Shown here: positions 1,114-31,933 of the stretch, piece by piece
Layout: each line of letters starts with the position of its first letter
Numbering within the stretch: the stretch's first letter is position 1
Virus record (IMG/VR): IMGVR_UViG_3300046474_000200
Location: 1-33,155 of that record
Length of the DNA stretch: 33,155 bases
Source of the DNA: a virus
Reading direction: 5' to 3' (one strand)
Notes under the pieces: generated by a model
The model's database searches: none
Seen by the model: the letters and a program-made list of their open reading frames with translations, nothing else
What the model was told of the DNA's origin: nothing
Program-made: the position numbers and the translations under genes

Positions 1114-1129
1114 CTCCCAAATTTGGGAG
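1114..1129. promoter_or_regulatory. Operator palindrome 1 (CTCCCAAATTTGGGAG)
   Basis: Perfect 16-bp dyad with CA-g and g-TG flanks. It lies between the 877 gene and terL. Its right arm doubles as the terL ribosome site. Confidence 0.85.
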
Positions 1130-1137
1130 GTGCTCTC

Positions 1138-2874
1138 TTGCTTCCGGTTTCTCCGTACGGTCCGGCTGAGCCTAAGCCTGGATTCTTTATGTACGACGAG
1201 GCCAAAGCGGCTCACGCTGTGACGTTCATTGAACGGCTTATCGTCCACACCAAGGGACGGCATGCCGGACATCCGTTCATCCTCGACGAGTGGCAAAAAG
1301 AAGAGATCGTAAAGCCACTGTTCGGCACGATGATGTGGGATGACCAGTACAACGAGCACGTGCGGCAATACCGCATTGCTTGGCTGGAAATGGCCCGCAA
1401 GAACGGTAAGAGTGAGCTACTTTCAGCGTTCGCGCTGCTCGGCCTCGTCGGCGATTTTGAGGAGTCGGCTGAGGTTTACTCGGTTGCTGCTGACCGTGAT
1501 CAGGCTGGATTGGTTTACAACACCGCTAAGCGGATGGTTGAGCTTTCGCCGATCCTCAGCAAGCGACTAGAGATCATCGATTCGCGCAAGCGCATTATTG
1601 ATCGCAAGACGAACAGTTTTTACCAAGTGCTTCCGGGTGACGCTGCGGGTGCCCTCGGTACCAATCCGTCCATGGTTCTGTTCGACGAGGTGCTGACGCA
1701 GAAAGACCGGCATCTCTGGGACGCGATGCGACAGGGTTTCGGCACCCGGCGTCAGCCGATCATGATTGCGGCAACGACGGCCGCTTACCGCACGGCTGCA
1801 TTCGCCCTTGAGGAGCACGAGCACGGGCTACGCGTACGCGATGACCAGAACCTTGACTCGGCCCGGTTTGTGTTCGCGCGGAACGTCCCTGACGAATGGG
1901 ATTGGACGGACGAGGGTGTACCGCCCTCCGAGGAGCACCCAAAGGGGACCGGTTGGTATCTCGCCAATCCGGCCCTTGGCTCGTTCCTGAATATCAACAA
2001 CTTGCGCGCTGAGGCGGACGAGGCTAAGCAAAAGCCGACCGCTCAGAACTCTTTCCGAGTGTTCCGCCTTAACCAATGGGTGTCTCAGGCCAACCGTTGG
2101 TTGGACATGCACCTATGGGACGTGAACGGCTCAGAGAAGATCACGCGCGAGTCTTTGCGCGGTCGACCTTGTTACGCCGGAATCGACCTTGCCGCAACGG
2201 GTGACTTTAACGCTTGGGTCCTGCTGTTTCCGGGCTCGCCGAACGATCCTGAGGCGGACGGCTGGACAGTCATTCCGCATTTCTGGGTTCCTCGTCCGGC
2301 TGTTGCTCGCCGCTCGAATATGCAAAGCCATTTCGAGGTGTGGGAGCGTGACGGGCACCTCACGGTGACCGAGGGCCCGACGACGGACTTTAACGCTATC
2401 TTCCGGCACATCGCGCGGGACGCTGAGGACTTCCGAATCAAGTTCTTTGGCTACGACCCGTGGAACGCTACGCAGCTTGTGAATGACCTTGAGGCTCAGG
2501 GACTTACGGCCGTCAAGGTGCCTCAGTCAGCGGCCCGGTTGAACGATCCCTGTAAGAAGATCGAGGGTTCGCTAGCGGCCAATGGGCTACGCCACGGCGG
2601 GCACCCGGTGCTGCGTTGGATGGCTGACAACGTTGAACTTGACGTTACGGGTGATGGCCTCATTCGGCCCTCTAAGGCTCGTTCCGGCGAGAAGATCGAC
2701 GGCATTGCCGCTCTCGCTAACGCTTTCTTCCTGACCGCTTTGCCGGACGAGGAAGAGGCTTTCGTGACGTTCCTGAATTTCAACGACAACCTCTCTGACG
2801 CTGATCTAGAGGCGCTATTGACTCCCGCATCTCAGCGGGACCGGGAAGCTCATTTCTTCCCTGACGACGACTAG
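1138..2874 (+). CDS. terL: Terminase large subunit
   Basis: This is the 578-residue packaging motor and nuclease. The ATPase Walker A is ARKNGKS with Lys near residue 91. Walker B is VLFDE with Asp183-Glu184. The nuclease domain begins with YAGIDLAATGD (Asp about 350), the RNase H-like fold of Terminase_1/HK97-type large subunits. The TTG at 1138 is chosen because GGGAGG (1125-1130) sits 7 bases before it. An in-frame TTG at 1123 lies inside the palindrome and has no ribosome site of its own. The ribosome site is therefore the right arm of the operator palindrome at 1114-1129. The length is normal for the family. Confidence 0.95.
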   Translation: MLPVSPYGPAEPKPGFFMYDEAKAAHAVTFIERLIVHTKGRHAGHPFILDEWQKEEIVKPLFGTMMWDDQYNEHVRQYRIAWLEMARKNGKSELLSAFALLGLVGDFEESAEVYSVAADRDQAGLVYNTAKRMVELSPILSKRLEIIDSRKRIIDRKTNSFYQVLPGDAAGALGTNPSMVLFDEVLTQKDRHLWDAMRQGFGTRRQPIMIAATTAAYRTAAFALEEHEHGLRVRDDQNLDSARFVFARNVPDEWDWTDEGVPPSEEHPKGTGWYLANPALGSFLNINNLRAEADEAKQKPTAQNSFRVFRLNQWVSQANRWLDMHLWDVNGSEKITRESLRGRPCYAGIDLAATGDFNAWVLLFPGSPNDPEADGWTVIPHFWVPRPAVARRSNMQSHFEVWERDGHLTVTEGPTTDFNAIFRHIARDAEDFRIKFFGYDPWNATQLVNDLEAQGLTAVKVPQSAARLNDPCKKIEGSLAANGLRHGGHPVLRWMADNVELDVTGDGLIRPSKARSGEKIDGIAALANAFFLTALPDEEEAFVTFLNFNDNLSDADLEALLTPASQRDREAHFFPDDD

Positions 2875-2882
2875 GAGTCACA

Positions 2883-3074
2883 TTGGAACGGCTGACTAAG
2901 TTCAGCCGCTCCCTCGTCACCTCCCTTACTGCTCAGGTCCCTAACGCATTCCAGCTTGGCGCGTTCGGGTTCGGTGTCACGGCTGCATACGACGTTGCGC
3001 GCCCTCTTGGGCACCTAGCGGCGGCCGTTGCGCTTGGCCTGATCGGTAAGGCTATGGACGGGGGCAAGCGGTGA
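2883..3074 (+). CDS. Small protein, possibly membrane-associated
   Basis: This 63-residue protein starts at TTG 2883 with AGGAG upstream. The middle and C-terminal parts are hydrophobic and alanine-rich (LGAFGFGVTAAYDVA, LGHLAAAVALGLIGKAM), suggesting one weak membrane segment or an amphipathic helix. It overlaps the portal start by 4 bases (GTGA), so the two are translationally coupled. I do not recognise the family. Confidence 0.65.
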   Translation: MERLTKFSRSLVTSLTAQVPNAFQLGAFGFGVTAAYDVARPLGHLAAAVALGLIGKAMDGGKR

Positions 3075-5077: not shown

Positions 5078-6262
5078 ATGGATTACGCCAAGAAGGCTCA
5101 GGACGCGCTTGAGGAGCGCGCCCGGATCGTTGGTGAGCTGCGCTCGATCAACGATGACGCCACCCTGTCTGAGGCTGAGAAGCGTGAGCGCATTGAGCGT
5201 GCGGACGCTGACGCTCAGCGGTACGAGGCTGAGGCCCGTGACTACGTTGAGCGCGCTGAGCGTGAGGCGGAGGCTCGTTCCCTTGCCGCGCGTGCCGGAG
5301 CTGCTCTGAGCGGCGCTGAGGGCCGTTCGGCGGGCGGTGGCCGGGACGAGGCCGAGGAACTGCGCGCCATCGGTCGTGGTGAGGTCAAGGGTGTTGACTT
5401 TGACATCCGTACCGCAACGTCGGGCACTGCCGGTAACGCCGGTAACACCAAGCCGACCACGTTTGCGGCTCAGGTCATTGAGGCCATGCGTGTGCGCTCG
5501 GACTTCTTCTCTTACGCGCGCACGCTGACCACGTCCGGCGGCGAGACGATCGAGTACCCGGTTAAGAACGGGCGCCCGACGGCCGCTCAGCAGGCGGAAA
5601 ACGTCGCGTACGGCAAGAGTGACGAGTCCTGGACCAAGACCAACATTGGTGCGTACAAGTACGGCATCATTGTTGAGGCCACTCAGGAAATCGTCGACGA
5701 CTCGGCCCTAGACATCCTCGGCATTCTCGCGAATGACGCTGGTGAGGCCGTGGCGGACGCCGTTATGACTGACCTGATGGTCGGTAACGGCACCGGCAAG
5801 CCTTGGGGTTGGGTTACCCGCTCGACCGGCGCTGTGAACTCCGCGAACCTCGCGGGCGTTACGGCCGACAACCTCATTGACCTACAGCATGCGCTACTGC
5901 TGCCGTACCGCCGTAACGCTGTCTTTATGACCAGTGACACGGCCGTTGCTGCGCTGCGCAAGCTCAAGGACTCGACCGGCCGTTACCTGTGGCAGCCGTC
6001 GCTACTCGCGGGCAAGCCTGACACCCTCCTAGGTGCTCCGCTGATCACGGACCCGAACTTTGTTACTACCGGTTCGGGCTCCAAGATCATGGTTTACGGC
6101 GACCCTTCCAAGTACCTGATCCGGCAGGCTAAGGCGCTGCGGGTGGTCCGTTCCGACGAGTACGGCTTTGACCGTGACGTCGTGGCGTTCAAGGTCACGT
6201 GGCGCGGTTCCGGCGACCTGTTCGACACCGCGAGTGTCAAGGCGCTGACCGTTACCGCCTAA
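5078..6262 (+). CDS. Major capsid protein (HK97 fold)
   Basis: This 394-residue protein has a charged, coiled-coil-rich N-terminal segment of about 100 residues (the scaffolding delta domain) followed by the HK97-fold capsid body. Recognisable parts are SGGETIEYPVKNG (E-loop region), the long spine helix around AGEAVADAVMTDLMVGNGTGKPWG, and the A-domain FMTSDTAVAALRKLKDSTGRYLWQPS. I start it at ATG 5078, preceded by AAAGG; the frame stays open further upstream but only over the protease gene. The delta domain is presumably cut off by the adjacent protease. The cleavage point cannot be fixed by eye. Confidence 0.95.
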   Translation: MDYAKKAQDALEERARIVGELRSINDDATLSEAEKRERIERADADAQRYEAEARDYVERAEREAEARSLAARAGAALSGAEGRSAGGGRDEAEELRAIGRGEVKGVDFDIRTATSGTAGNAGNTKPTTFAAQVIEAMRVRSDFFSYARTLTTSGGETIEYPVKNGRPTAAQQAENVAYGKSDESWTKTNIGAYKYGIIVEATQEIVDDSALDILGILANDAGEAVADAVMTDLMVGNGTGKPWGWVTRSTGAVNSANLAGVTADNLIDLQHALLLPYRRNAVFMTSDTAVAALRKLKDSTGRYLWQPSLLAGKPDTLLGAPLITDPNFVTTGSGSKIMVYGDPSKYLIRQAKALRVVRSDEYGFDRDVVAFKVTWRGSGDLFDTASVKALTVTA

Positions 6263-6285
6263 TCAGCGGTTCGAGGGGTGGGCAG

Positions 6286-6301
6286 CTCCCAAATTTGGGA
6301 G
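6286..6301. promoter_or_regulatory. Operator palindrome 2
   Basis: Perfect core with CA-g and t-TG flanks, after the capsid gene. It is nested in a longer GGGC...GCCC stem and followed by CCCCCTTGGGAGGG, so it may also terminate capsid transcription. Confidence 0.85.
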
Positions 6302-6327
6302 TTGCTCGCCCCCTTGGGAGGGATTAC

Positions 6328-6540
6328 GTGAAAGTCAAGATTCTTGAGCATGTGCCGGGGCTACTCGACGGCGACCCGTTCCCCGCTGAGGGTTCGGTTG
6401 TGACGCTGCCCGTTGGTCTGGCTATGTCGCTCGTCAATGACAACCGCGCTGAGCCTGTGGGAGGCCCTGAGGGGCCCGAGAGGGCGTCAGCGGCAGCACC
6501 CGAGACCCGTAAGGTCACCCGGGCTCGCAAGACGGCGTAA
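6328..6540 (+). CDS. Small head-module protein
   Basis: This 70-residue protein starts at GTG 6328, preceded by GGGAGGG (6316-6322). It has a small beta-type N-terminal part (VKVKILEHVPGLLDGDPFPA) ending in LAMSLVNDNRAEPV, then a low-complexity basic tail (ETRKVTRARKTA). Actinobacteriophages often carry such a small protein just after the capsid gene. The 54-residue product at 7805 has a similar ending (SLIRQGWREV), suggesting related folds. Its function is unknown. Confidence 0.7.
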   Translation: MKVKILEHVPGLLDGDPFPAEGSVVTLPVGLAMSLVNDNRAEPVGGPEGPERASAAAPETRKVTRARKTA

Positions 6541-8940: not shown

Positions 8941-8947
8941 TAGGCAG

Positions 8948-8963
8948 CTCCCAAATTTGGGAG
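8948..8963. promoter_or_regulatory. Operator palindrome 3
   Basis: Perfect core; the dyad is fully symmetric over 22 bp (CAG...CTG). It lies between the tail tube and gp10-like genes. Confidence 0.85.
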
Positions 8964-8982
8964 CTGAGGGAGGACTGAGCCA

Positions 8983-12968: not shown

Positions 12969-12991
12969 GGGAGTCGGGGGCATCTAGGCAC

Positions 12992-13007
12992 CTCCCAAAT
13001 TTGGGAG
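12992..13007. promoter_or_regulatory. Operator palindrome 4, nested in a terminator-like stem
   Basis: Perfect core with CA-c and c-TG flanks, after the tape measure gene. An outer 11-bp stem, GGGGGCATCTA (12976-12986) with TAGGTGCCCCC (13014-13024), encloses it and is followed by TCTCT. Confidence 0.85.
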
Positions 13008-13051
13008 CTGCGGTAGGTGCCCCCTCTCTAATCTGACTAGGAGGTGCATCC

Positions 13052-16006: not shown

Positions 16007-16018
16007 CTGAGGTGGCAT

Positions 16019-16034
16019 CTCCCAAATTTGGGAG
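16019..16034. promoter_or_regulatory. Operator palindrome 5
   Basis: Perfect core with CA-t and g-TG flanks, extended by GGCA/TGCC and followed by CCCCTTGGGAGGG. The downstream sequence closely parallels that after copy 2. Confidence 0.85.
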
Positions 16035-16057
16035 GTGCCCCCTTGGGAGGGTACACA

Positions 16058-18665: not shown

Positions 18666-18692
18666 TTTCGTCACCCGTTCGAGTGACCGCAG

Positions 18693-18708
18693 CTCCCAAA
18701 TTTGGGAG
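18693..18708. promoter_or_regulatory. Operator palindrome 6
   Basis: Perfect core with a CA-g left flank; the right flank is t-AG, the only exception to the TG rule. It lies downstream of the kinase terminator and 75 bases before the 18783 gene. Confidence 0.82.
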
Positions 18709-18782
18709 TAGGTTGCACCGACCATGATCACTGTGCTTAACTACTCCCGCAACGACAACAACGAAGGCAAGGGGCGGCACCG

Positions 18783-20399
18783 ATGGGGCGCAACGAACTG
18801 AACGAGTGGCTGAACGTCAGTCCGTCGCGCTCCTTTATCCGCATCGGCAAGGGCAAGTCGGCGCACCTGGACCGGGGCAACGACGAGAGCCTGTGTGGAC
18901 GGCTCATGATCACCGGCGGTCGCATCGACACCATAGACGCAGCCAACATGGACAACATCTGTTCGCGCTGCTGGAAGATCATGGAACGAGAGGCCAACGA
19001 GGCCGCCGCGCAGCTCCCAAATTTGGGAGATGAGTTGCACGAGGACGAGGCGACCACTAAGGTTGCCAACAACAGCCCGGCAGACAGCGGGGCAGGGGAG
19101 GAAGGCAAGGCAATGACGACTTTCGCGGAGCGCATGGATGCGGCGGAGTACGTGCAGGTTGGCGCTGGCAAGACGCCTCACGTCAAGGGGGACGACGGCA
19201 AGAACACCGCTTGCGGCAAGACCCCCAAGGGTGCACTGTCCGACCCCGACCTGACCAAGGTGTGCAAGGCTTGCCTTGCCGTAATCACTGCCGCCTACCC
19301 GACCGACGAGGAGACCAACACCGTGGCTACCGACACCGAGACCGCTGAGCTGACGGACGACGAGAAGCGTCAGAAGATCGGTGAGCTGACGCTCGCTATC
19401 AAGGCGCTCGCTGAGGCGGGGGAGGATCAGGAAGGGGCTCAGGCGCTCAAGGACGAGGCTGAGAGCCTGATTGGAACACTGCCGGTCGGCGACCGCAACG
19501 ACCTGCGCAAGGTGCTTGACGTTGCGTTCAAGGGTGGCAGCGACGTCCCGACTGAGGCCAAGGCCAAGCCTGCCGCCAAGAAGACGGTTGCCAAGAAGGT
19601 TGCCGCTCCCAAGCCCGACCTTGAAACCAAGGACTACAAGACGGCCGAGGGCGTTTCGGAACTCGTCACCATGGGTGCCGAGAAGATCCGTGAGGGTGTG
19701 ACCGCTCACCAGAAGGCGAGCACCACCGCGCACGAGGTGGCGGCCGTCATCCTTGACATGCGTCTCCGCATCAAGAACAAGTCCGGTGTTCCGGACCTCA
19801 AGGCTCAGTCTCAGGCGGCACGCGACGCTGCGGGGGACATGTACAAGGCTGCGGGCAGCAAGCTCGACGGCACCGACGAGGAGGTACGCGACGCGGTTGC
19901 CTCGATGGTCAAGGCCACTCAGTACCGCATGTCGGATCTTCTCGTGAACTGGGTTCGTGCCCTGGACAACTCGCCCGAGGAGTACGCCAAGCTTTTCGGT
20001 GCGGTCAAGGAAGCGCACCCGGACATGACCCCCGCTGAGGCGGTGTTCAAGTTCTACAACCTCAGCAACAAGTCCGCCCTTGAGCGCGAGAAGGAGAGGC
20101 AGGCTGCCAAGAGGCTTGACCCCGAGACCAAGCTTGCCATCACGGCGGGTGGCGGAGAGGTGCCCGAGGAGCCTGAGGGCAAGGGCGGGGAGGCCGTCAA
20201 GACCCCGGGCGAGAAGGTGGCTGAGGCCGCACCGGAGAAGAAAGCTGAGACGTTCGTTGAGGCGCTCACCAAGCTCGTCAGCAAGTTCGACAAGTCGTAC
20301 CTTGAGACCATTGAGGACGAGGACGAGAAGAGCAAGCTTGAGGGTCAGATCAAGGACGCTGAGGACAAGCTCAAGGAACTCCGCAAGGCTCTGATCTAA
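18783..20399 (+). CDS. Large early protein with two zinc-knuckle-like modules, possible gene fusion
   Basis: This 538-residue protein is not recognised as a whole. Two similar N-terminal modules are visible: His28, Cys38, Cys60-x2-Cys63 and His133, Cys144, Cys161-x2-Cys164, each likely to bind one zinc. Between them lies an acidic linker encoded partly by an operator palindrome (19014-19029, QLPNLG). A second good start exists at ATG 19113 (Met111) behind GGGGAGGAAGG, so a 428-residue shorter form is likely. The rest is charged and helical, with a lysine/alanine-rich linker near 260-280 and coiled coils near the end. The layout suggests two adjacent genes fused across a former intergenic operator. 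Confidence 0.75.
   Translation: MGRNELNEWLNVSPSRSFIRIGKGKSAHLDRGNDESLCGRLMITGGRIDTIDAANMDNICSRCWKIMEREANEAAAQLPNLGDELHEDEATTKVANNSPADSGAGEEGKAMTTFAERMDAAEYVQVGAGKTPHVKGDDGKNTACGKTPKGALSDPDLTKVCKACLAVITAAYPTDEETNTVATDTETAELTDDEKRQKIGELTLAIKALAEAGEDQEGAQALKDEAESLIGTLPVGDRNDLRKVLDVAFKGGSDVPTEAKAKPAAKKTVAKKVAAPKPDLETKDYKTAEGVSELVTMGAEKIREGVTAHQKASTTAHEVAAVILDMRLRIKNKSGVPDLKAQSQAARDAAGDMYKAAGSKLDGTDEEVRDAVASMVKATQYRMSDLLVNWVRALDNSPEEYAKLFGAVKEAHPDMTPAEAVFKFYNLSNKSALEREKERQAAKRLDPETKLAITAGGGEVPEEPEGKGGEAVKTPGEKVAEAAPEKKAETFVEALTKLVSKFDKSYLETIEDEDEKSKLEGQIKDAEDKLKELRKALI
19014..19029. promoter_or_regulatory. Operator palindrome 7, inside a reading frame
   Basis: Perfect core with CA-g and a-TG flanks, inside codons 77-82 of the 18783 gene (QLPNLG), 84 bases before the internal start at 19113. 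Confidence 0.82.
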
Positions 20400-22310: not shown

Positions 22311-22334
22311 GGGGCGGGCAAGGGCGGGAAGCAC

Positions 22335-22350
22335 CTCCCAAATTTGGGAG
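22335..22350. promoter_or_regulatory. Operator palindrome 8
   Basis: Perfect core with CA-c and t-TG flanks, between the leader motif B and the RDF-like gene. Outer arms GGCAAGGG and CCCTTGCC form a larger hairpin around it. Confidence 0.85.
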
Positions 22351-22411
22351 TTGAGTGCATGCCCCCTTGCCTGCCTCGCCCAATCAGAGACATTCAGAGT
22401 GAGGTCACAGC

Positions 22412-23450: not shown

Positions 23451-23471
23451 TCGTCTTACTAGGGAGGTTGA

Positions 23472-23654
23472 ATGGAGCGGCGTATTAGCTGCGCCAATGC
23501 TCCGGCCATCGGTGATATCCGGGCCATGGGTGAGGGTGACGTCATTTGGCTGCATGCCAATGTCGAGACTCGCAAGGATTGGCCACGCTACGCGGATGCG
23601 CTGATTGCAGCGGTTACCCGTGGCGCTGAGGTTAGGCGTAGGTGGGGGCTGTGA
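23472..23654 (+). CDS. Small hypothetical protein
   Basis: This 60-residue protein starts at ATG 23472 with AGGGAGG upstream. The sequence MERRISCANAPAIGDIRAMGEGDVIWLHANVETRKDW... has no motif I recognise. Its stop overlaps the start of a 24-residue membrane peptide. Confidence 0.65.
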   Translation: MERRISCANAPAIGDIRAMGEGDVIWLHANVETRKDWPRYADALIAAVTRGAEVRRRWGL

Positions 23655-23725
23655 CAGCTTTCTTCGTTGGCATGTTCTGTGGGCTGATTCTGTACTACGT
23701 GACGAGGGGCGGGCTCAAGCGGTGA
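23651..23725 (+). CDS. 24-residue membrane peptide
   Basis: The frame GTG 23651 to TGA 23725 encodes TAFFVGMFCGLILYYVTRGG followed by LKR: one hydrophobic helix with a basic C-terminus. It overlaps the preceding stop (GTGA) and the following HNH start (GTGA), which makes a real coupled gene likely despite its size. Its role is unknown. Confidence 0.6.
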   Translation: MTAFFVGMFCGLILYYVTRGGLKR

Positions 23726-24159
23726 AGGTGTGTCGACTATGCGGGCGGGGGAAGCCCGCTGAACAGTTCCTAGCGGGCAAAGCCCGTAAGCCCTCTAGCA
23801 CGTGCTCGACGTGCCGCCGGAAGCTACAGGCTCAGCACCGACGCAACTACTACGCGCGCTTGCCGGTCGACAAGCGGCATGAGCTGACACACAAGCGCCG
23901 TGCTGAGGCTGCGGGAGTGGAACACGTCCCGTACTCCCGTACGGCCATCCTCGCCCGTTGGGGGCACATGTGTGCCTACTGCAATGCGTACGCCACGCAC
24001 CTTGACCACGTGACACCAATTGCCAAGGGGGGTGCGGACGTTGAGGCAAACATCGTTCCGGCATGTGCCCCGTGCAACCTGAGCAAGGGAGCAAAAACGC
24101 TTGCCGAGTGGTCAGAGACATTCGGGCCCGGGGAGTTGCCGGACGATCCGCCGTTCTAG
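23722..24159 (+). CDS. HNH endonuclease with N-terminal zinc ribbon
   Basis: This 145-residue protein starts at GTG 23722, overlapping the upstream stop. A zinc ribbon is formed by Cys4, Cys7, Cys28 and Cys31. The HNH core has Cys84-x2-Cys87, then LDHVTPI with Asp95-His96, Asn110 and Cys115-x2-Cys118-Asn119. All key residues are present. It could be a homing endonuclease or a phage nicking enzyme acting in DNA processing. Its stop codon is part of the next leader motif. Confidence 0.88.
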   Translation: MKVCRLCGRGKPAEQFLAGKARKPSSTCSTCRRKLQAQHRRNYYARLPVDKRHELTHKRRAEAAGVEHVPYSRTAILARWGHMCAYCNAYATHLDHVTPIAKGGADVEANIVPACAPCNLSKGAKTLAEWSETFGPGELPDDPPF

Positions 24160-24182
24160 AGATGCCCTCTCAGACCTGAGTG
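24156..24182 (+). promoter_or_regulatory. Repeated leader motif, copy C
   Basis: CTAGAGATGCCCTCTCAG then ACCTGAGTGA. The TAG is the HNH stop, and the primase ATG is 44 bases downstream. A weak CTCTC/GAGAG pairing (24167-24171 with 24185-24189) is possible. Confidence 0.55.
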
Positions 24183-24200
24183 AAGAGAGAAAGGGACCCA

Positions 24201-26654
24201 ATGCAGTTCACTGACATTCTCGCGCGGTTCGCTCAGGTCTCCGAGGAGGTTGACGGCGGGTATCTCGCCCTGTGTCCGGCGCATGCGGACTCAAACCCCT
24301 CGTTGCGCATATGGCGCGGCGATGACAACAAGGTTCGGATCACGTGCCGTTCCGGGTGCAAGCCTGATGACATCGTGCGTGCCGCAAACCTCACTTGGGC
24401 CGACATGTTCAACGCCACGGGGGAGGGGCTGACCGTAGCCAAGGAAAAGCCGGTCCTCGTCGGTCCGGGCCCAATTGCCGGGCTGCGTATGTACGTTGAG
24501 GAAACGTCTCACGCGCTCCTCGACTATGACAGCGAATGGGCGGCACGCGCACGGGCCTACGTTGGCGAACGGTTCGGGCTCGACGCTGACACGGCTTGTG
24601 AGATGTTCCTTGGGGTTGACCCTGGGGCTTTCTCGGGTGGGCCGTCCCGTCCGTTCCCGTTCCTCTCCCGCGCTTACACCTCGTTCCCTCGTCTCACGGT
24701 TCCCCTCGTCGGTTTCGACGGTGTCATACGAGGGCTACAGGGGCGCGATCTTTCCGGGGAGTGCCCCGGTCGGTGGGTGTCCCTGATGAACCCCAAGGGG
24801 CACAGGTGGGCCCCGTACGGCGTTTTCAGGGGTGAGGGTGGCTATGGGGTCACCATCGTGTCTGAGGGGCCCGGAGACGGGCTCACAGCGGTTTCTGTGG
24901 GGTACAACGCCGTAGCGGTACGGGGTGCCTCGCTCGCCGGTAGCCCGGAGTTGCTCGCCGAGTTCGCCGAGGGGCTGCACGGTACTCAGGTAATCGCTGC
25001 GGGAGACAACGACGAGGCCGGGCAGCGCTTTAACCGCATGCTTGCCGAGGGGCTCAAGCCGTTCGGGATCGTGGTGTATGAGCTGCGGATCCCGGACCAT
25101 GGGCCCAAGACTGACCTCTCTCGATGGCGTGAGGTTGACCCCCATGGCTTCCCCCTTGCGCTGCACCGTGCCGTCAAGGCTGCAAAGCCCGTGCGCAACA
25201 GCGCTGAGGCTGAGGCTGAGGCGGTATCCGCTGAGCTGACCGAAGCAACCGGCGCGGACGTCGTGAGCCGTGACCAGGGCACTGAGGCTGCGCGCATCCT
25301 CGCTGGTCTGATCAACCGCTATGGCGAGTCGGACGCGATGAACGCACATGCCCTCGTTGCGTGGACTGACGGCCGTATCAAGTACGCCCCGGGGCTTGGG
25401 TTCTACACATGGAACGGGCGCACTTGGGAGCGCTCTGAGGTCAAGATCAGGCAGGAAATCCACCGCATGGGCGCTGCCCTCGTGCTCGCGGGTGAGACGC
25501 AGAAAGCCCGGGGGTTCACCATGACCACTCGGATTGATGCCCTCATGACTGAGCTGCGGAGCGTGCCGACCGTGCACGTTGATGCGTCCGCATTCGACGC
25601 GCGGCCTGATCTGCTGAGTTTCCGTAACGGCACGGTCGACCTGCGGACGGGTGTCCTGAGGCCGCACGCCAAGGGGGACATGCTCACGTACGCGCTCGAT
25701 ATCGAGTACCGGGCTAGCGCCGAGTGCCCGCGCTGGGAACAGTTCCTGTCTGAGATTTTCCCTGACAACCCTGAGCTTGTTCCGTACATGCGTCGCCTCG
25801 TCGGCTACGGCATTTCGGGGCACGTCAGCGAACAGGCTTTCTGTGTTCTGTGGGGCAAGGGCGCTAACGGCAAGTCGGTGTTTACCGAGACGCTCAGCAG
25901 TGTGTTTCGGACTATCAGCAAGACCACTGGCTTTGCCACGTTCGAGGAAAAGTCGTCGGGCGGCATTCCCAACGACATTGCCGCGCTGCGAGGTGCTCGC
26001 CTCGTCATGGCTTCCGAGGGCGAAAGCGGTAGGCCCATGTCTGAGGCCATCCTCAAGCGGGTGACCGGCAAGGACATGATCTCTGCGCGGTTCCTCCGCC
26101 AAGAGTTTTTCGAGTTCCGTCCGGCGTTCCTGCTCATGCTGGCAACCAACCACAAGCCTCGTTTCCGGGGTCAGGACGAGGGGCTTTGGCGCCGAGTCAA
26201 GATGATCCCGTTCAAGCGGTGGTTTGCTCCGGACGAGCGTGACCACACCCTTGACGCAAAGCTGTTGGCTGAGGCTGAGGGCATTGCCGCTTGGGCGGTC
26301 CGTGGCGCCGTTGAATGGTTCGCCAACGGGCTTGAGGACCCTGGGGTTATCAAGCGTGCCGTCAAGGAATACCGCGAGACGAGTGACGCGCTCGCCGGTT
26401 TCTTCCCGGGTGTTCTTGAGCGGGACGAGGCGCACACCCTCAACGGTACTGAGGCTTTCAACTCTTACCTTGACTGGTGTGAGGCTGAGAACCTCCCGAT
26501 GCGTGAGCGGTGGACGCGACGCACGTTTTACGCGGCCATGGAAGAGCGCGGGATCGTCCGCAAGAAGACGGCCGTAGGCATCGCCCTCGTCGGTGTGTCG
26601 TTGCCGGGTGCGCCTAAGCCGGTATCCGGTCCGGGCATCCTCGGAGGCGCGTAG
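24201..26654 (+). CDS. Primase-helicase (P4/D5-type)
   Basis: This 817-residue protein fuses a primase to an SF3 helicase. A zinc finger lies at Cys25, His28, Cys49 and Cys53. A TOPRIM core follows, with VSEGPGDG (Glu222) and AAGDNDEAG (Asp269, Asp271). The D5_N region occupies roughly 400-540. The helicase has Walker A GKGANGKS (Lys558), the acidic motif ASEGESG, and LLMLATNHKPRFRGQDEGLWRRVKMIPF carrying motif C and the arginine finger. I choose ATG 24201, with AAAGGGA upstream, over GTG 24180, which lies in the leader motif. Together with the polymerase it forms the replication core. Confidence 0.95.
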   Translation: MQFTDILARFAQVSEEVDGGYLALCPAHADSNPSLRIWRGDDNKVRITCRSGCKPDDIVRAANLTWADMFNATGEGLTVAKEKPVLVGPGPIAGLRMYVEETSHALLDYDSEWAARARAYVGERFGLDADTACEMFLGVDPGAFSGGPSRPFPFLSRAYTSFPRLTVPLVGFDGVIRGLQGRDLSGECPGRWVSLMNPKGHRWAPYGVFRGEGGYGVTIVSEGPGDGLTAVSVGYNAVAVRGASLAGSPELLAEFAEGLHGTQVIAAGDNDEAGQRFNRMLAEGLKPFGIVVYELRIPDHGPKTDLSRWREVDPHGFPLALHRAVKAAKPVRNSAEAEAEAVSAELTEATGADVVSRDQGTEAARILAGLINRYGESDAMNAHALVAWTDGRIKYAPGLGFYTWNGRTWERSEVKIRQEIHRMGAALVLAGETQKARGFTMTTRIDALMTELRSVPTVHVDASAFDARPDLLSFRNGTVDLRTGVLRPHAKGDMLTYALDIEYRASAECPRWEQFLSEIFPDNPELVPYMRRLVGYGISGHVSEQAFCVLWGKGANGKSVFTETLSSVFRTISKTTGFATFEEKSSGGIPNDIAALRGARLVMASEGESGRPMSEAILKRVTGKDMISARFLRQEFFEFRPAFLLMLATNHKPRFRGQDEGLWRRVKMIPFKRWFAPDERDHTLDAKLLAEAEGIAAWAVRGAVEWFANGLEDPGVIKRAVKEYRETSDALAGFFPGVLERDEAHTLNGTEAFNSYLDWCEAENLPMRERWTRRTFYAAMEERGIVRKKTAVGIALVGVSLPGAPKPVSGPGILGGA

Positions 26655-26776
26655 TGCACATCTGGCATCGCTGGGGGAAGTGGGGCAAGCCGAAAGAGTA
26701 CGGCTCGTTTGTCGAGTCTCACTATCAGGAACGCACGTGCGCGGTGTGCAACCTAGTTCAGCGTAGGTCGCTGTAA
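26654..26776 (+). CDS. Small hypothetical protein with one Cys-x2-Cys
   Basis: This 40-residue frame starts at GTG 26654, sharing one base with the primase stop. The product is Trp/Lys-rich at first (HIWHRWGKWGKPKEYGSF) and has CAVC near its end. A single Cys pair could bind zinc only as a dimer. It is supported by tight coupling and by filling the gap before the operator; no family is recognised. Confidence 0.5.
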   Translation: MHIWHRWGKWGKPKEYGSFVESHYQERTCAVCNLVQRRSL

Positions 26777-26796
26777 GTGGTCAACTCAGGGGGCAA

Positions 26797-26812
26797 CTCC
26801 CAAATTCGGGAG
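26797..26812. promoter_or_regulatory. Operator palindrome 9 (one-base variant)
   Basis: CTCCCAAATTCGGGAG, a single T-to-C change in the core. Flanks CA-a and c-TG are kept. It is nested in GGGGGCA...TGCCCCC, followed by TTGTCG, 26 bases before the polymerase start. Confidence 0.8.
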
Positions 26813-26837
26813 CTGCCCCCTTGTCGTGGGGAGAGAC

Positions 26838-28685
26838 GTGAGGGTTTACAGACATGCCGTCGCCGGTGACGTCGTCGAGGTGCTCATACCCGAGACGCTT
26901 GACGACTTGTACGCGTTCAAGGACTGGCTAGCTGAGGCCAACAAGCGTGGCCCGGTAGCGGTCGACACCGAGACAACCGGCCTCAACATCTACAGCAACG
27001 GCTACCGGTTGCGCACCGTGCAGTTTGGCGACGCGCACACCGCATGGGTCATCCATTGGGAGCGCGGGGGTTACTTCCAGGATGTTGCCCGTTGGGCGCT
27101 GCGCATCCTTGAACGGGTGCTCATTCACAACGCGCCGTTTGACTGGCTAGTCCTGGACGAACATGCGGGCATCCCGCTTGAGGACTTGGCACCTCGTACG
27201 ACGGATACCAAGCTCAAGGCTGCCCTCGTCGACCCCCGCCAACCGCAAGAGGGTGGCGTTGGGACGGGCCTCAAGCCGTTGAGTGCTTTCTACATTGACC
27301 CCTCGTCGCCGGACACTCAGGGCGACCTTACGGCGGTGTTCCGGTCCCTGGGTTTGACCAAGGCAACCGGGTGGGCCGGTATCCCGCTCGACCACCCAAC
27401 TTACAACCTCTATGCGGGACTTGACGTCATCCTCGGCTCACGTATCGACGTGGTGCTGACCGCCGAACTTGAGCGGCGGGGTGTGCGCCCTGAGCTTGTG
27501 CAGTACGAGCATGAGCTAGCCCGTATCTGCTCGGTCATGATGCGCACGGGCCTCGTTCTCGACGAGGAGTACACGCACGGGCTGCGGTACCAACTCCAAG
27601 ACGAGGCCGGGCATTTCGAGGGTGTTGCCCGGCGGTACGGCGTCGAGAACGTGAACAGTACGGCTCAGGTTGCTGAGGCGCTGTTGGCCATGGGTGAGAC
27701 GCTCACTGAGCGGACGGCATCGGGTGCGGTCAAGGTTGATAAGGCCGTGTTGCTCGGTCTCGCAGACATGTCTATGCAGTGGGAGCGTACGGGGCTGCGT
27801 AGCCCAAACCCGTTGGCTGAGGCGGTAGTTAGGGCCAAGCGTGCGGGTAAGTGGGGGTCGGCATACGTAGACACGTTCCTTGAGACGGTCGACGGCAACG
27901 GCCGTGTGCATCCCATGATCAACACCTTGCAAGCCCGAACGGGTCGGATGAGTATTTCCGGGCTTGCGCTGCAAACGCTGCCGTCCTCGGATCAGATGAT
28001 CCGCCGTGCGCTCCTCGCTGACGAGGGTCACGTCATGGTGTCGACCGACTTTGCGGCCGTTGAGCTACGTGTGTTGGCTGCGCTCGCTGATGTGAAGCGC
28101 ATGAAGGAAGCCATCCGGGACGGCCGAGACTTGCACGACTTCACAGCGGGTCTCGTGTTCGGTCCGGGGTTCACCAAGCAACACCGCAAGATTTCCAAGG
28201 GAATTGCGTTCGGCAAGGTGTACGGCGGTGGCGCTGCCACGATCGCTCGCCAGACCGGCGCACCGTATGACGAGGTGGTCAAGGCGCTTGCTGCCTATGA
28301 CCGGGCGTACCCGGAGATTAAGCGGTTCGCCAACCGTCACCAGCGTGAGGCGCGCGCTAACGGCATGGTCACCGTGACCGTGACGGGCCGTCACCTGCCG
28401 CTAGACCGTGACCGGGCGTACGCCGTGACGAACTATCAGGTTCAGAGTGCGGCCCGTGACGTCCTCGGTCAGGCACTGATCAACATGGACGAGGCCGGGC
28501 TAACTGCCTATCTCCGCTTGCCAATTCATGACGAGGTGCTTGCAAGCGTGCCCGCCAACGAGGCGACCGACTACGCGCGCGAGATTGAGCGCTGCATGCG
28601 CATGCACCTTGGGGGAGTGGCCATCGACGCTGAGGCGGAGATTGGGCGCCGTTCCTGGGGGTCCCTGTACGGGGCTGAGTACTGA
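26838..28685 (+). CDS. Family-A DNA polymerase (3'-5' exonuclease plus polymerase)
   Basis: This 615-residue enzyme has the proofreading exonuclease motifs DTET (Asp43, Glu45), HNAPFD (Asp102) and YAGLD (Tyr192, Asp196). The polymerase has motif A STDFAAVELR (Asp404, Glu409), motif B RKISKGIAFGKVYGGG and motif C HDE (Asp565). There is no 5'-3' exonuclease domain, as usual for phage PolA. I prefer GTG 26838, with GGGGAG 5 bases upstream, over the in-frame GTG at 26826. It replicates the phage genome with the upstream primase-helicase. Confidence 0.95.
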   Translation: MRVYRHAVAGDVVEVLIPETLDDLYAFKDWLAEANKRGPVAVDTETTGLNIYSNGYRLRTVQFGDAHTAWVIHWERGGYFQDVARWALRILERVLIHNAPFDWLVLDEHAGIPLEDLAPRTTDTKLKAALVDPRQPQEGGVGTGLKPLSAFYIDPSSPDTQGDLTAVFRSLGLTKATGWAGIPLDHPTYNLYAGLDVILGSRIDVVLTAELERRGVRPELVQYEHELARICSVMMRTGLVLDEEYTHGLRYQLQDEAGHFEGVARRYGVENVNSTAQVAEALLAMGETLTERTASGAVKVDKAVLLGLADMSMQWERTGLRSPNPLAEAVVRAKRAGKWGSAYVDTFLETVDGNGRVHPMINTLQARTGRMSISGLALQTLPSSDQMIRRALLADEGHVMVSTDFAAVELRVLAALADVKRMKEAIRDGRDLHDFTAGLVFGPGFTKQHRKISKGIAFGKVYGGGAATIARQTGAPYDEVVKALAAYDRAYPEIKRFANRHQREARANGMVTVTVTGRHLPLDRDRAYAVTNYQVQSAARDVLGQALINMDEAGLTAYLRLPIHDEVLASVPANEATDYAREIERCMRMHLGGVAIDAEAEIGRRSWGSLYGAEY

Positions 28686-28701
28686 GATCCGAGGGGGTCA
28701 C

Positions 28702-28977
28702 TTGTTCTACCGGCGACAACGGGAACGGGTGGCCCCCTCTCGTGCTGAGCTTTACCGAATGTGGGCAGATGCGGACGCATGGGCCTGTATCTACTGCGGC
28801 GCCCCCTGGGACGAGGTGGATCACTTCTACCCGTTGGCCGGGGGAGGGGAGGACACGCACGGCAATTGTTGGCCAAGTTGTACGCGCTGTAACCATTCCA
28901 AGGCTGACGCTCACCCTGTGTCGTGGTTGAGGGTTCAGCTCCCAAATTTGGGAGGTGAGCTGCGTCACACTCGTTGA
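28702..28977 (+). CDS. HNH endonuclease (short form)
   Basis: This 91-residue protein starts at TTG 28702 with GAGGGGG upstream. The HNH core is complete: Cys29-x2-Cys32, Asp40-His41, Asn55 and Cys60-x2-Cys63-Asn64. The C-terminus reads through an operator palindrome (28939-28954), giving QLPNLGGEL. Those residues lie outside the catalytic fold and may be an extension acquired when the original stop was lost. It follows the polymerase by 16 bases. Confidence 0.85.
   Translation: MFYRRQRERVAPSRAELYRMWADADAWACIYCGAPWDEVDHFYPLAGGGEDTHGNCWPSCTRCNHSKADAHPVSWLRVQLPNLGGELRHTR
28939..28954. promoter_or_regulatory. Operator palindrome 10, at the end of a reading frame
   Basis: Perfect core with CA-g and g-TG flanks, inside the last codons of the short HNH gene (QLPNLG), at the edge of the large non-coding region. 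Confidence 0.82.
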
Positions 28978-29339
28978 CCTTACCGATCATGCGTTGGCGT
29001 TAACGATCTTTGCTGCGAACTCATGATCGCTTTGCTGTGACACACATGTACCGCTCGGTAACGATGGCGTGATGTCTCCGAGTTAGGTCTCATCCCTGAG
29101 GACGATTCAGATTTCGACATGTGTTCCTCACACATCCATCACAACCCCAACTAGGTCTAGTGGGCACCTAAGTAAGGCCGTGGACTACCTACCTAATTAG
29201 GTGTGTAGTCAGACCCACGACAGATCGCCAAAGCGCTAGCGGGACGTCGTGCAACACCCGGAAGGAACCCCAAGGCATGCCCCCGCATGCCCTGTGGCAC
29301 CCCGTGTGGCGCACGTCACCTCATGCGCTCCCTTCCGGG
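28978..29339. other. Non-coding region with several dyads, candidate control or origin region
   Basis: No supported gene lies here. Visible structures are: CGATCATG (28984-28991) inverted at 29022-29029; ACACATGT (29042-29049) inverted at 29117-29124; an ACCTAATTAGGT palindrome (29191-29202) inside a 28-bp dyad with GACTAC/GTAGTC ends (29183-29210); CACCTAAGTA at 29165, matching the 3' half of the leader motif; a GGCATGC-cccc-GCATGCC hairpin (29274-29291); and an outer stem CCCGGAAGG/CCTTCCGGG (29257-29265 with 29331-29339). It is less GC-rich than the genes around it. It may hold promoters, a replication origin or a structured RNA. Confidence 0.5.
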
Positions 29340-29386
29340 CTAGAGACGCCCTCTCAGACCTCAGTAACGAGGCCAACCGGAAGGAA
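29257..29386 (+). promoter_or_regulatory. Possible alternative-pairing leader of the sigma-factor gene
   Basis: CCTTCCGG (29331-29338) can pair either with CCGGAAGG at 29258-29265 or with CCGGAAGG at 29377-29384. The second copy is the ribosome site of the gene at 29395. The two pairings exclude each other. The CCGGAAGGAA repeat is 10 bp and exact. Confidence 0.45.
29340..29366 (+). promoter_or_regulatory. Repeated leader motif, copy D
   Basis: CTAGAGACGCCCTCTCAG then ACCTCAGTA. The TAG is 54 bases before the sigma-factor ATG. It is not part of an upstream stop here, so its conservation is not due to coding. Confidence 0.6.
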
Positions 29387-29394
29387 ACACGATC

Positions 29395-30198
29395 ATGTCT
29401 GAGTTCCCCACCATTACCCCCGACGACGTCACGGCCGCTCGCGCTGGTGACCTCGTCGCCTCCCGCACGATCATCGACGGCACCGAGGGAATCGTTAAGA
29501 AGCTCTCTTACGAGGCTTGCCGTAAGGCTTCCCGCCTTGACCTCGTCGAGGACATGGAACAGCACGCACGACTGACCGTGTGGGAGGCCGTGAGCCGGTA
29601 CGAGGCGCGCAACGATGCCAAGTTCTCTAGCTACGTGTTCCGGAACATAGCCGGAGCCATTGAGGACGAGATGAGCCGAGTCACTCGGCCGGGTGTCAGC
29701 ACCGAATCAATGAAGATGTTCGTCAAGTGCCTCAGCATCTCCGAGGGGGACGTTGCAGCGGCCGAGAAGCTTGCCACGGTCGGCAACAGTGCCCGCCGGT
29801 TGAGTAAGGAACTTGCCCGCGCTACCCGACTTGCTTGGGAGGGTGCTTCGAGCCTCGATATGCCCGCTGAGGACACCGACGGGGGAGCGGCGACCCTGGG
29901 GGACCTGATCGCCGATCCGTACGGCTACGGCGTCCCTGAGGGCCTCGTTGAGCCCAGTGACATTGCGGCCAGTCAGCGCAACCGCAACAAGGACCTTGCT
30001 CACGCGCTCCTCGCGCTGACCACCGAGCGACGCAGGTTCGTTCTCAAGGCCACGTACGGCATTGACCCCGTGCCGTTCTTTGAGGACGACAACGAGATTG
30101 CCGCGCACCTTGAGGTGGCGCGTAGCACGGTCGGTAACACGCGCTCTCAGGCGCTCAAGGAACTCCGCACCAAGGGTGAGGCGCTCCTCAACGCGTAA
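29395..30198 (+). CDS. Sigma-70-like RNA polymerase factor
   Basis: This 267-residue protein starts at ATG 29395 with GGAAGG upstream. Residues about 28-100 match region 2 (LVEDMEQHARLTVWEAVSRYEARNDAKFSSYVFRNIAGAI), the part that binds the polymerase and the -10 element. Residues about 205-262 match region 4 with a helix-turn-helix (NEIAAHLEVARSTVGNTRSQALKEL). The linker between them is divergent. It could redirect host RNA polymerase to phage promoters. Its own gene carries the repeated leader motif, as do several other non-structural genes. Confidence 0.85.
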   Translation: MSEFPTITPDDVTAARAGDLVASRTIIDGTEGIVKKLSYEACRKASRLDLVEDMEQHARLTVWEAVSRYEARNDAKFSSYVFRNIAGAIEDEMSRVTRPGVSTESMKMFVKCLSISEGDVAAAEKLATVGNSARRLSKELARATRLAWEGASSLDMPAEDTDGGAATLGDLIADPYGYGVPEGLVEPSDIAASQRNRNKDLAHALLALTTERRRFVLKATYGIDPVPFFEDDNEIAAHLEVARSTVGNTRSQALKELRTKGEALLNA

Positions 30199-30201
30199 GC
30201 G

Positions 30202-30228
30202 CTAGAGACGCCCTCTCACACCTAAGTA
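30202..30228 (+). promoter_or_regulatory. Repeated leader motif, copy E
   Basis: CTAGAGACGCCCTCTCACA then CCTAAGTA, starting 4 bases after the sigma stop and 42 bases before the tRNA-like gene. A GGCGC/GCGCC hairpin (30229-30243) lies between. With no start codon nearby, a promoter is the simplest reading. Confidence 0.6.
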
Positions 30229-30244
30229 GGCGCCGTCAGCGCCC

Positions 30245-30315
30245 GCCCCGGTAGCTCAGTGGCAGAGCAGGACTGATCACCCAACGGTCGCAGGGTTCGA
30301 ATCCCGCCCGGGGCG
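30245..30315 (+). tRNA. tRNA-like gene with an irregular anticodon arm, isotype not assigned
   Basis: The acceptor stem GCCCCGG/CCGGGGC (30245-30251 with 30308-30314), TA at positions 8-9, the D-arm GCTC-agtggca-GAGC, and the TTCGAAT T-loop with GGG/CCC are all canonical. The anticodon arm is not. The only good stem is GACTG/CGGTC (30271-30275 with 30285-30289) around a 9-base loop, ATCACCCAA, leaving almost no variable loop and a bulged A in the T-stem. CCA is not encoded. It is either a real but unusual tRNA, a tRNA mimic, or a decaying gene. Confidence 0.6.
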
Positions 30316-30347
30316 CTCCGCAAGACCAAATCAGAGGAGAAACAGAA

Positions 30348-30524
30348 ATGACTTACACCCTTCCCAGCGGTGGCCGAGTGCAGTTCTTCCGCGTCGACGC
30401 GGACACCGTTGAGTTCGTCCACTACAACCGCAACAACGAGGTCACTGCCACGGTTCGCAAGAGCCTTTCCGAGGCCGGTCCGCTTATCGCCGCTCTCGCG
30501 GTGGCTGAGACCGCTCTTTCGTAG
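30348..30524 (+). CDS. Small hypothetical protein
   Basis: This 58-residue protein starts at ATG 30348 with GAGGAGA upstream. It begins TYTLPSGGRVQFFRVDADTVEFVHYN, a likely small beta-structure, and ends in an alanine-rich helix. The family is not recognised. It may share the transcript that starts before the tRNA-like gene. Confidence 0.7.
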   Translation: MTYTLPSGGRVQFFRVDADTVEFVHYNRNNEVTATVRKSLSEAGPLIAALAVAETALS

Positions 30525-30554
30525 ACCAGTGGCGGGACCGGAAAGCGAGCCTCA

Positions 30555-30710
30555 ATGGCTAAGCGATTCATGCCCGCTCTTGACGAAATGGATGCCGGGG
30601 CGCACCCGACCCTAGGCGTACGAGAGACAGCGGAGAGGCGTGAGGCACTCGACAGCCTCACCCTCTCCGGTCTCTTTGATGACGAGGCGGACACCGATGA
30701 ATGGGAGTAA
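30555..30710 (+). CDS. Small acidic hypothetical protein
   Basis: This 51-residue protein starts at ATG 30555; AAAGCGAG precedes it. It is helical and acidic (ETAERREALDSLTLSGLFDDEADTDEWE). The stop lies 4 bases before the next ATG. The family is not recognised. Confidence 0.6.
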   Translation: MAKRFMPALDEMDAGAHPTLGVRETAERREALDSLTLSGLFDDEADTDEWE

Positions 30711-30714
30711 CGGC

Positions 30715-30969
30715 ATGCCGGGCATTGTGCGAATCAAGGAAACTCGCGAGGTCAAGGCGGAACTCACGGCCGAAAAGGGCGGGCGGCTGATTGCGTGGCA
30801 CAACGACCGTGAGCCGGGGCTCATTTCGATTGCTGCTGTGGGCGACCGTGCCAAGCTCACTCCGGCTGAGGCCCGAGCGATCGGCAGATGGCTGATTGAG
30901 AATGCCGACATTGTCAGCATGACGCCGGGCAGCGTGATTCCCGGGCTCAAGACGAGGACGTACCGCTAA
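30715..30969 (+). CDS. Small hypothetical protein
   Basis: This 84-residue protein starts at ATG 30715, with GGGAG 7 bases upstream; an ATG at 30697 is possible but has a poorer site. It reads PGIVRIKETREVKAELTAEK..., a small alpha-beta pattern, with an LTPAEARAIGRWLIENA helix. The same general plan (beta strands then an 'E-A/S-A-R' helix) is seen in the next product, so they may be related. The stop overlaps the next start (TAATG). Confidence 0.68.
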   Translation: MPGIVRIKETREVKAELTAEKGGRLIAWHNDREPGLISIAAVGDRAKLTPAEARAIGRWLIENADIVSMTPGSVIPGLKTRTYR

Positions 30970-31328
30970 TGGGCAAGCGCGCTGATCTAGACCGGCCTGC
31001 GGGGCGCCTCAGTGTGGCGCTCGACAACGACGGCGAAATACGTCTCACGTTCGGCACACAGACAGCGTTTCTCGACGCTGAGAGTGCCCGTGATCTGTCG
31101 TCCATGCTCCTCAGCCTTGCGGATGAGGCAGACGACATTCTTGGTAACGAGGCCGTTACCGACCCGCTGACCGGGGAACGCTCGGAACGCACCGATACGG
31201 AATACGTCGCTGACCGGGCGGACGTCTGGCACGCTGCCCGTGGCTTGCTCGTCTCGGGTGGCTACATCCCGCCGGATCCTGAGGACGTCATAAGCCTCGC
31301 TCGCTTCCTGGCGGGTGATGGCCTGTGA
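30969..31328 (+). CDS. Hypothetical protein
   Basis: This 119-residue protein starts at ATG 30969, overlapping the previous stop. The first half (GRLSVALDNDGEIRLTFGTQTAFLDAESARDLSSMLLSLADEA) parallels the preceding protein. The second half is acidic and helical. The function is unknown. It overlaps the following GTG start by 4 bases. Confidence 0.68.
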   Translation: MGKRADLDRPAGRLSVALDNDGEIRLTFGTQTAFLDAESARDLSSMLLSLADEADDILGNEAVTDPLTGERSERTDTEYVADRADVWHAARGLLVSGGYIPPDPEDVISLARFLAGDGL

Positions 31329-31903
31329 GCGTACGCACGTGGAACCTCGTCCCCGTCGGGCTCGCAACGGGCCTAGCGGGGCTTGTGGCGGCCGTTGGTG
31401 CCGGTATCGGGGTGAGTGCTACGGCAGACGATTCCAAGCCCGTACCGACCCCCACAGTGACCGTTACGGAAACGGTGACGGCTACCCCCAAGCCCAAGGC
31501 AACGCACAAGGCCAAGCGCAAGCGCAAGGCCAAGCCCAAGCCAACGGCTACGCCGACCGTGACGCGCTCACCGAGGGCGACGAGGAGCACGACGAGGCCG
31601 ACGGTATCCGGAAGCCCTCAGGCGGTCGCTAGGACGCTCCTAGCGGCCCGTGGGTGGTCGGCTCAGTGGTCGGCATTCAATGCCCTTGAGATGGGGGAGG
31701 CGGGATGGAATCCCCGTGCTCTTAACCCCTCGTCGGGTGCTTGTGGTCTGCCTCAGGCGCTGCCCTGTAGCAAGCTCCCGAACGGCATCAACTCGACCGT
31801 GACACAGCAGGTCACTTGGATGCTGGATTACATCGCCCGGAATTACGGGTCACCGGCCAAGGCTTATGCCGCTTGGCTTTCTCGTTCGCCGCATTGGTAC
31901 TGA
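31325..31903 (+). CDS. Membrane-anchored lytic transglycosylase-like protein
   Basis: This 192-residue protein has one hydrophobic N-terminal segment (about residues 8-32), a Thr/Pro then Lys-rich linker (33-95) and a C-terminal domain (96-192). The domain reads FNALEMGEAGWNPRALNPSS, continuing GACGLPQALP; Glu122 or Glu125 is the likely catalytic acid. This is the pattern of actinobacterial SLT-like or aggregation-promoting-factor C-terminal domains. Cys140 and Cys148 could form a disulfide outside the cell. It lies outside the lysis cassette, so it may modify the envelope early, aid release, or block superinfection. Confidence 0.75.
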   Translation: MSVRTWNLVPVGLATGLAGLVAAVGAGIGVSATADDSKPVPTPTVTVTETVTATPKPKATHKAKRKRKAKPKPTATPTVTRSPRATRSTTRPTVSGSPQAVARTLLAARGWSAQWSAFNALEMGEAGWNPRALNPSSGACGLPQALPCSKLPNGINSTVTQQVTWMLDYIARNYGSPAKAYAAWLSRSPHWY

Positions 31904-31917
31904 GTGAATCGGGGCAG

Positions 31918-31933
31918 CTCCCAAATTTGGGAG
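31918..31933. promoter_or_regulatory. Operator palindrome 11
   Basis: Perfect core with CA-g and t-TG flanks, extended to GGGGCA/TGCCCC (31911-31940). It lies between the transglycosylase-like gene and thyX. Confidence 0.85.

Follow-up and report, generated by a model that had tools for sequence, protein, structure and literature searches.

The repressor sites of the Streptomyces phage phiC31 are known as 'conserved inverted repeats'. In one account both phiC31 and phage L5 possess dispersed sites, 18-30 of these, though the L5 sites, or stoperators, lack symmetry and it is a monomer of a different repressor that binds them (PMC4557955). L5 and its Cluster A relatives nevertheless are similar to what I describe here in terms of having many dispersed sites at which transcription is blocked, and stoperator motifs of Cluster A are described as diverging together with the repressor (PMC6550527), which supplies a precedent for joint change of sites and repressor. 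R4-like Streptomyces phages, as described in PMC10276819, have dispersed, intergenic repressor sites as well, but are a different phage group, likened here by that description rather than by stoperator sequences. The DNA that is the subject of this study, 'the window', comes from a soil phage related to phiC31 and is the whole of a virus record (IMG/VR IMGVR_UViG_3300046474_000200), 33,155 bases and possibly a fragment, in which a 16-base-pair (bp) palindrome, CTCCCAAATTTGGGAG, is found eleven times. Based on sequence comparison, these palindromes very probably serve as operators for a c repressor of the phiC31 type that the phage itself encodes (gene at 18783-20399), that is, as a divergent operator of the conserved-inverted-repeat system.

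The palindromes and the repressor gene

Ten of the copies are exact and one, at 26797, has a single change, which is just what a first-pass annotation, made from the letters alone, had listed. It had held too that chance would give no copies, and with up to 3 mismatches allowed, 100 dinucleotide shuffles of the window indeed gave a mean of 0.09 copies and at most 1. The sites, in a 22-bp frame and listed without strand, along with the repressor gene, are as follows:

1111..1132 (core from 1114): operator 1, before TerL
6283..6304 (core from 6286): operator 2, after capsid gene, at tip of terminator-like hairpin
8945..8966 (core from 8948): operator 3, after major tail gene
12989..13010 (core from 12992): operator 4, after tape measure gene, hairpin
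16016..16037 (core from 16019): operator 5, after a tail gene, hairpin
18690..18711 (core from 18693): operator 6, upstream of c, without clear outer stem
18783..20399, + strand: c repressor gene, 538 residues
19011..19032 (core from 19014): operator 7, within 5' part of c, where it encodes QLPNLG; non-coding in a relative
22332..22353 (core from 22335): operator 8, between exonuclease and recombination directionality factor (RDF)-like genes, hairpin
26794..26815 (core from 26797): operator 9, one mismatch, between primase and DNA polymerase genes, hairpin
28936..28957 (core from 28939): operator 10, between polymerase and sigma factor genes, near end of HNH open reading frame (ORF)
31915..31936 (core from 31918): operator 11, before thyX, hairpin

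Outside of the core, 11/11 copies have CA on the left and 10/11 have nTG on the right, the exception being copy 6 (18693), which reads TAG, all as had been claimed. The free base (n) differs between copies, the left/right pairs of copies 1-11 being g/g, g/t, g/c, c/c, t/g, g/t, g/a, c/t, a/c, g/g, and g/t. The claim that this base does not covary thus stands for the window; in the sites of relatives (excluding L048, a 99% identical strain), however, it is C/G throughout. The principal relative, referred to below simply as the relative, is IMG/VR contig 3300047446_000091, of 41,410 bases, with aligned segments 70-86% identical to the window.

According to gene calls that I made, in which starts were placed by inspecting the sequence, 9/11 copies are intergenic, the exceptions being 19014, within the ORF of the repressor, and 28939, toward the end of the HNH ORF. 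Some ORFs of a mechanical ORF list overlap or begin in other copies (e.g., 6199-6540), and these I take to start further down. One could suppose that the palindromes are start-associated or ribosome-binding elements, with GGGAG serving as a Shine-Dalgarno sequence and CTCCC sequestering it. GGGAG does resemble a Shine-Dalgarno core, and some starts are close by, but distances to likely starts vary, several of the genes that follow have a GGAGG-like site of their own, and two copies are inside of ORFs, leaving this supposition exceedingly improbable.

That an L5-like repressor binds the palindromes as stoperators of the L5 or R4 type is suggested by the number, dispersal, and mostly intergenic placement of these sites, especially given that R4-like Streptomyces phages are described as having such a system (PMC10276819). 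The window's sites, though, are symmetric, with a perfect 16-bp palindrome in 10/11 copies and hence no asymmetric site of the L5 type, and the repressor that is found belongs to the phiC31 c family. I view this alternative as very unlikely, and of the L5 parallel that was originally drawn the likeness in function stands, but nothing beyond function.

That repressor had gone unrecognized in the first-pass annotation, but its gene is present in the window. In Pfam the ORF at 18783-20399 hits PF25746 (Streptomyces phage repressor protein c) over residues 191-531 (E 6.6e-60), and with this repressor as query tblastn finds 28 phage records, including those of phiC31, BT1, TG1, Rowa, and Shaeky. 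Identity is 26-27% to the repressors of phiC31, BT1, and Vash and 28% to that of Rowa, and a joint clade of window and Rowa is neither recovered nor rejected by an approximately unbiased test (p 0.17). The c gene sits between deoxynucleoside monophosphate kinase and exonuclease genes, the same order as is seen in the phages compared. Carriage of the repressor family within the genus of G001 (a record labelled Streptomyces violascens) is 8/392 genomes, a count which includes G001, itself picked because of its c-family repressor.

Site networks across the repressor family

Altogether 23 repressor-core sequences were searched for repeated palindromes, with a clear dispersed network seen in 19 and a weak one in 4. 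Eighteen of the clear networks come from a de novo search for 16-mer palindromes, allowing up to 3 mismatches in the first set of sequences and up to 2 in later sets; in the latter, one block shuffle per sequence gave at most 2 for 16-mers, while the first set had no shuffle for phiC31, BT1, TG1, Shaeky, and AbbeyMikolon. The palindrome search alone (16-mers) found no network in Rowa, for which comparison of the regions upstream of c and gp25 instead yielded a 22-bp palindrome at 17 sites, without a shuffle control. Counts otherwise are 11 for the window, 8 for the relative (21 kilobases, kb), 16 for each of phiC31 and BT1, 15 for each of TG1 and Vash, 11 for each of AbbeyMikolon and Shaeky, 12 for Sycamore, 17 for G263, 14 for G340, 11 for G193, 19 for G001, 8 for G047, 14 for G002, 8 for L065 (20 kb), and 9 for each of L076 and L079 (22 kb). 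Sharing the window's repressor family, phiC31, BT1, and Vash have a 16-bp palindrome at 15-16, mostly intergenic places. In addition to a weak CGACTCAATTGAGTCG set, Dubu (L067) has GGAGAGGTCCTCTCC-like repeats at 11 places, many of them intergenic, and I have considered whether that repeat might be the Dubu operator.

The operators differ between phages, but their half-sites align within one 22-bp frame: CA.CTCCCAAA in the window, CACCTCCCAAA in the relative, CACCTCCGaAa in Rowa, CACCaCCTCAC in AbbeyMikolon, CACCGACTCAC in both G001 and L065, CACACCTaAAC in Shaeky, and AaCCTACTCAC in phiC31. The outer CA is present in 11/21 profiles and is absent from the phiC31 group. Among viral contigs, 14 have at least two exact CTCCCAAATTTGGGAG copies and all 14 align to the window. 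In a full-text literature search, whose coverage leaves out most subscription journals, the operator strings of the window and of Rowa had no occurrence, and a 10-base piece of the phiC31 operator matched in papers on people, plants, and animals.

Partition, replication, or packaging sites can be dispersed palindromes too, and the window's sites accordingly could belong to some other DNA-binding protein of the phage. No partition protein, however, was detected in Pfam scans of 17 window proteins, a subset of the ORFs in a window from which about 7.6 kb may be missing, and recurrence of the design in phages having the c repressor speaks against it too. This other protein is a highly unlikely source of the pattern.

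Positions of sites are shared as well as their design. Of 8 assignable intergenic window sites, 7 are in gaps which also bear a phiC31 site (hypergeometric p 0.0023), where 10/24 phiC31 gaps (of at least 20 bases, up to thyX) hold a site and where 8948 (no phiC31 gap), 16019 (counterpart unsure), and 19014 (inside of c, as is a phiC31 site) were left out. Gaps in common include those after the capsid gene, between primase and polymerase, between polymerase and sigma factor, and before thyX. Counting by intervals across eight phages, 7 to 10 of the 11 sites are shared versus 4.0 to 6.2 expected, though such counting is weak with few anchors, and in some cases a single interval covers more than one site; the primase/polymerase gap has a site in 8/8 phages. 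Most positions have been kept, but operator sequence has changed. The first-pass annotation's central idea, one repressor acting at many operators in parallel with phiC31, accordingly has support in the c-family gene in the window, the like networks, and the shared positions.

Sites at c and hairpins at gene ends

At c itself there is one operator shortly upstream (18693) and one within the 5' part of the gene (19014), an arrangement which is that of phiC31 (19201, before c, and 19773, in c) and which BT1 and TG1 display likewise. In the protein alignment, peptides encoded at the in-gene operators are in neighbouring columns (QLPNLGDE in the window; THVSS, THVSR, and THVSA in phiC31, BT1, and TG1, respectively). 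The in-gene site, coding in the window but non-coding in the relative, is exact in both, so it is the DNA that is under selection. Candidate transcription and translation signals at c are the following:

18713..18742, + strand: possible c promoter, TTGCAC - 18 - TTAACT (weak -10), seen by eye and missed by the promoter pattern
19035..19063, + strand: promoter-like TTGCAC - 17 - TAAGGT directly after operator 7, from the pattern scan
19113..20399, + strand: possible short repressor isoform from M111, behind GGGGAGGAAGG

Pairs resembling -35 and -10 hexamers adjoin the window's in-gene site, the relative's two c sites, and one further site of the relative (TTGCAC-17-TAAGGT, TTGCGA-18-TAGTCT, TTGCAC-17-TACAGT, and TTGCGT-17-TAACGT), i.e., 4/28 sites of window plus relative versus a frequency of 0.00265 for window positions picked at random. 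The operator at the in-gene site, and probably that at the upstream site, ends right before a -35-like hexamer, and nested transcripts of the repressor should therefore be controlled by its binding, giving long and short protein, which would be autoregulation. Bearing on a possible short isoform are the in-gene operator, the promoter-like hexamers, and a Shine-Dalgarno-bearing start at M111. The relative's repressor (MSTYVQIG...) starts at roughly the place equivalent to M111, and phiC31 is described as having three repressor isoforms (PMC4557955).

Other observations concern the same region. The long window repressor (18783-19113 region) has, by eye, two modules resembling each other in their C...CxxC pattern, of which the relative has the second only, and the in-gene operator falls between the two. 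Just upstream of the pre-c operator is a conserved block, TCACCCGTTCGAGTGA, at window 18671-18686 and L062 9895-9910, with a near copy, again by eye, before the c gene of Sycamore; this perhaps is the site of another regulator.

An additional aspect of the palindromes, which the first-pass annotation had not noted, is that flanks outside of the 22 bp complement better within sites than between different sites. This is seen with the window (p 0.0024), phiC31 (p 0.0006), BT1 (0.0046), TG1 (0.001), Vash (0.0028), and Shaeky (0.009), as well as with the relative (p 0.001; 17 sites from two contigs, flanks counted from the 16-bp core). The phages being related, these tests are not independent. Own flank pairs of window and relative, moreover, are stronger on average than hybrid pairs (-16.95 vs -14.42; p 0.034 with 11 sites and 0.0195 with the 9 that remain without the two c sites). 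Upon folding, terminator-like hairpins tipped by the operator are seen at 6286, 12992, 16019, 22335, 26797, and 31918. These hairpins are without a clear U tail, and a terminator scan of 15500-33155 for which a T run was required yielded about the number expected by chance (13 vs 11.9) and included none of the operator hairpins there. Terminators without poly-U are known from phiC31.

It may be asked, then, whether the palindromes work in RNA alone, as terminator hairpins or processing sites, with the common core being simply a favoured hairpin tip. The complementary outer flanks are what one would expect of this, as too is the recurrence of hairpins at orthologous gene-end sites. Yet the 16-bp core does not covary but is invariant, the sites at 18693 and 19014 are without a clear outer stem but are exact in both window and relative, and in other phages with such a repressor the design persists with different cores. 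A role in RNA alone is quite unlikely. The earlier contention that selection acts on DNA rather than on a continuous RNA stem survives for the 22-bp core, but several gene-end copies are found as well in terminator-like hairpins with complementary outer flanks.

Operators of the c repressor remain as the preferred reading of the palindromes. In a lysogen the repressor would bind approximately 22 bp (outer CAn/nTG plus inner CTCCCAAATTTGGGAG) at all of the sites. At gene-end sites overlapping terminator-like hairpins, bound repressor probably would be a roadblock reinforcing termination, and this roadblock would stop read-through from waking the prophage.

A number of points weigh against this reading. 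Binding of the palindromes by the repressor is something that I infer from the comparisons above, and no mode of DNA binding emerged from structural modelling of the c repressor. The AlphaFold model, of residues 223-538, has a mean predicted local distance difference test score (pLDDT) of 68, with model residues 60-220 at about 88 and all helical. With it Foldseek gave nothing against the PDB at E <=0.001, and VIA-align on the Foldseek matches brought no DNA-binding family to prominence; designed helical proteins occupy its first three rows (Z 8.1, 7.5, 6.7), which offer no basis for a claim of fold. A sequence search among solved structures detected no relative of the c repressor, searching for relatives with alignment A1 gave no usable pattern, and searching with the Shaeky repressor gave no relative. 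Three BFVD matches at E <=0.001 are the Nesbitt immunity repressor and Vash and Shawty proteins listed as uncharacterized, whose loci also matched the window repressor in tblastn.

Also weighing against the reading are points that concern the sites. Networks are weak in 4/23 sequences (G227, 5 sites; G060, Dubu, and G318, 3 each), and Shaeky by scan has no site before or in c, having by eye a degenerate copy only. The gap test covers 8/11 sites, with 22335, lacking a phiC31 counterpart, its one miss, and the interval count is less telling, at 8/11 versus 4.27 expected for phiC31, with some intervals counted twice. The promoter pattern occurs also at 1/28 on the opposite side of a site (26797), reading away. 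In AbbeyMikolon (p 0.109) and Sycamore (p 0.353) the complementarity of flanks falls short of significance, hairpins and flank pairing are less clear at the other 5/11 window sites, and at 4/11 (1114, 16019, 18693, 28939) one hybrid pairing beats both own pairings. Lastly, the window's core, CTCCCAAATTTGGGAG, is unlike that of phiC31, CTACTCACGTGAGTAG, which is found at 16 places. Operators vary inside of this repressor family, however, so the exact phiC31 sequence is not taken as defining, and the window's operator is viewed as a variant.

Specificity, genome extent, and other elements

In my judgement it is an open question how a repressor changes its DNA specificity, given that a dozen or more sites have to change along with it. 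Assembled here are 23 repressor-core rows with several operator specificities in one 22-bp frame, 4 of these from weak networks, and that shared frame is what makes recognition residues, and the order of change, testable. The c repressor, without a solved-structure relative detectable by sequence, gains as well a set of matched targets. Six core columns are invariant in the 18 repressors scored as having C at operator position -3 (G060, G227, Dubu, and G318 among these resting on weak operators), and two of the columns, 381 and 432, differ in all 5 scored as having A; L076 and L079 were scored from the exact motif, and Sycamore is mixed at -3. As the 381/432 pattern amounts to 2 changes on the tree, no significance is obtainable, and these residues are candidates, i.e., leads for specificity only.

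A broader possibility, which I put forward tentatively and as somewhat more apt to fail than to hold, is twofold. First, the palindrome at several gene ends may have two readers, being DNA operator as well as RNA hairpin tip, with the repressor a lysogeny-specific terminator roadblock that arose separately from the stoperators of L5. Second, ten or more operators may have been rewritten together, at largely fixed positions, as specificity changed, perhaps via residues 381 and 432. A direct coupling of operator with terminator is suggested by the family as well.

The relative runs past the window's end, supplying six more sites and a serine integrase before returning to the equivalent of window 1114, and so about 7.6 kb, with more sites, probably is missing from the window. 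An RDF gene like gp3 of phiC31 in the window fits with a serine integrase having been encoded in that missing part. Features bearing on genome extent, along with a transfer RNA (tRNA) gene, are:

L032 5743-7590, - strand: serine integrase of the relative, in the part missing from the window
window 22412-23113, + strand: phiC31 gp3-like RDF, PF18897
window 30245-30315, + strand: tRNA gene, from Rfam

There is also a second dispersed element, CTAGAGACGCCCTCTCANACC (+ strand), at window 18031, 22283, 24156, 29340, and 30202, near gene ends. At up to 4 mismatches it has no copies in eight other c-family phages; at up to 3 the window has 5 copies versus 0.01 expected, and in the relative there are 3 copies in L062 and 3 in L026 (one shared).

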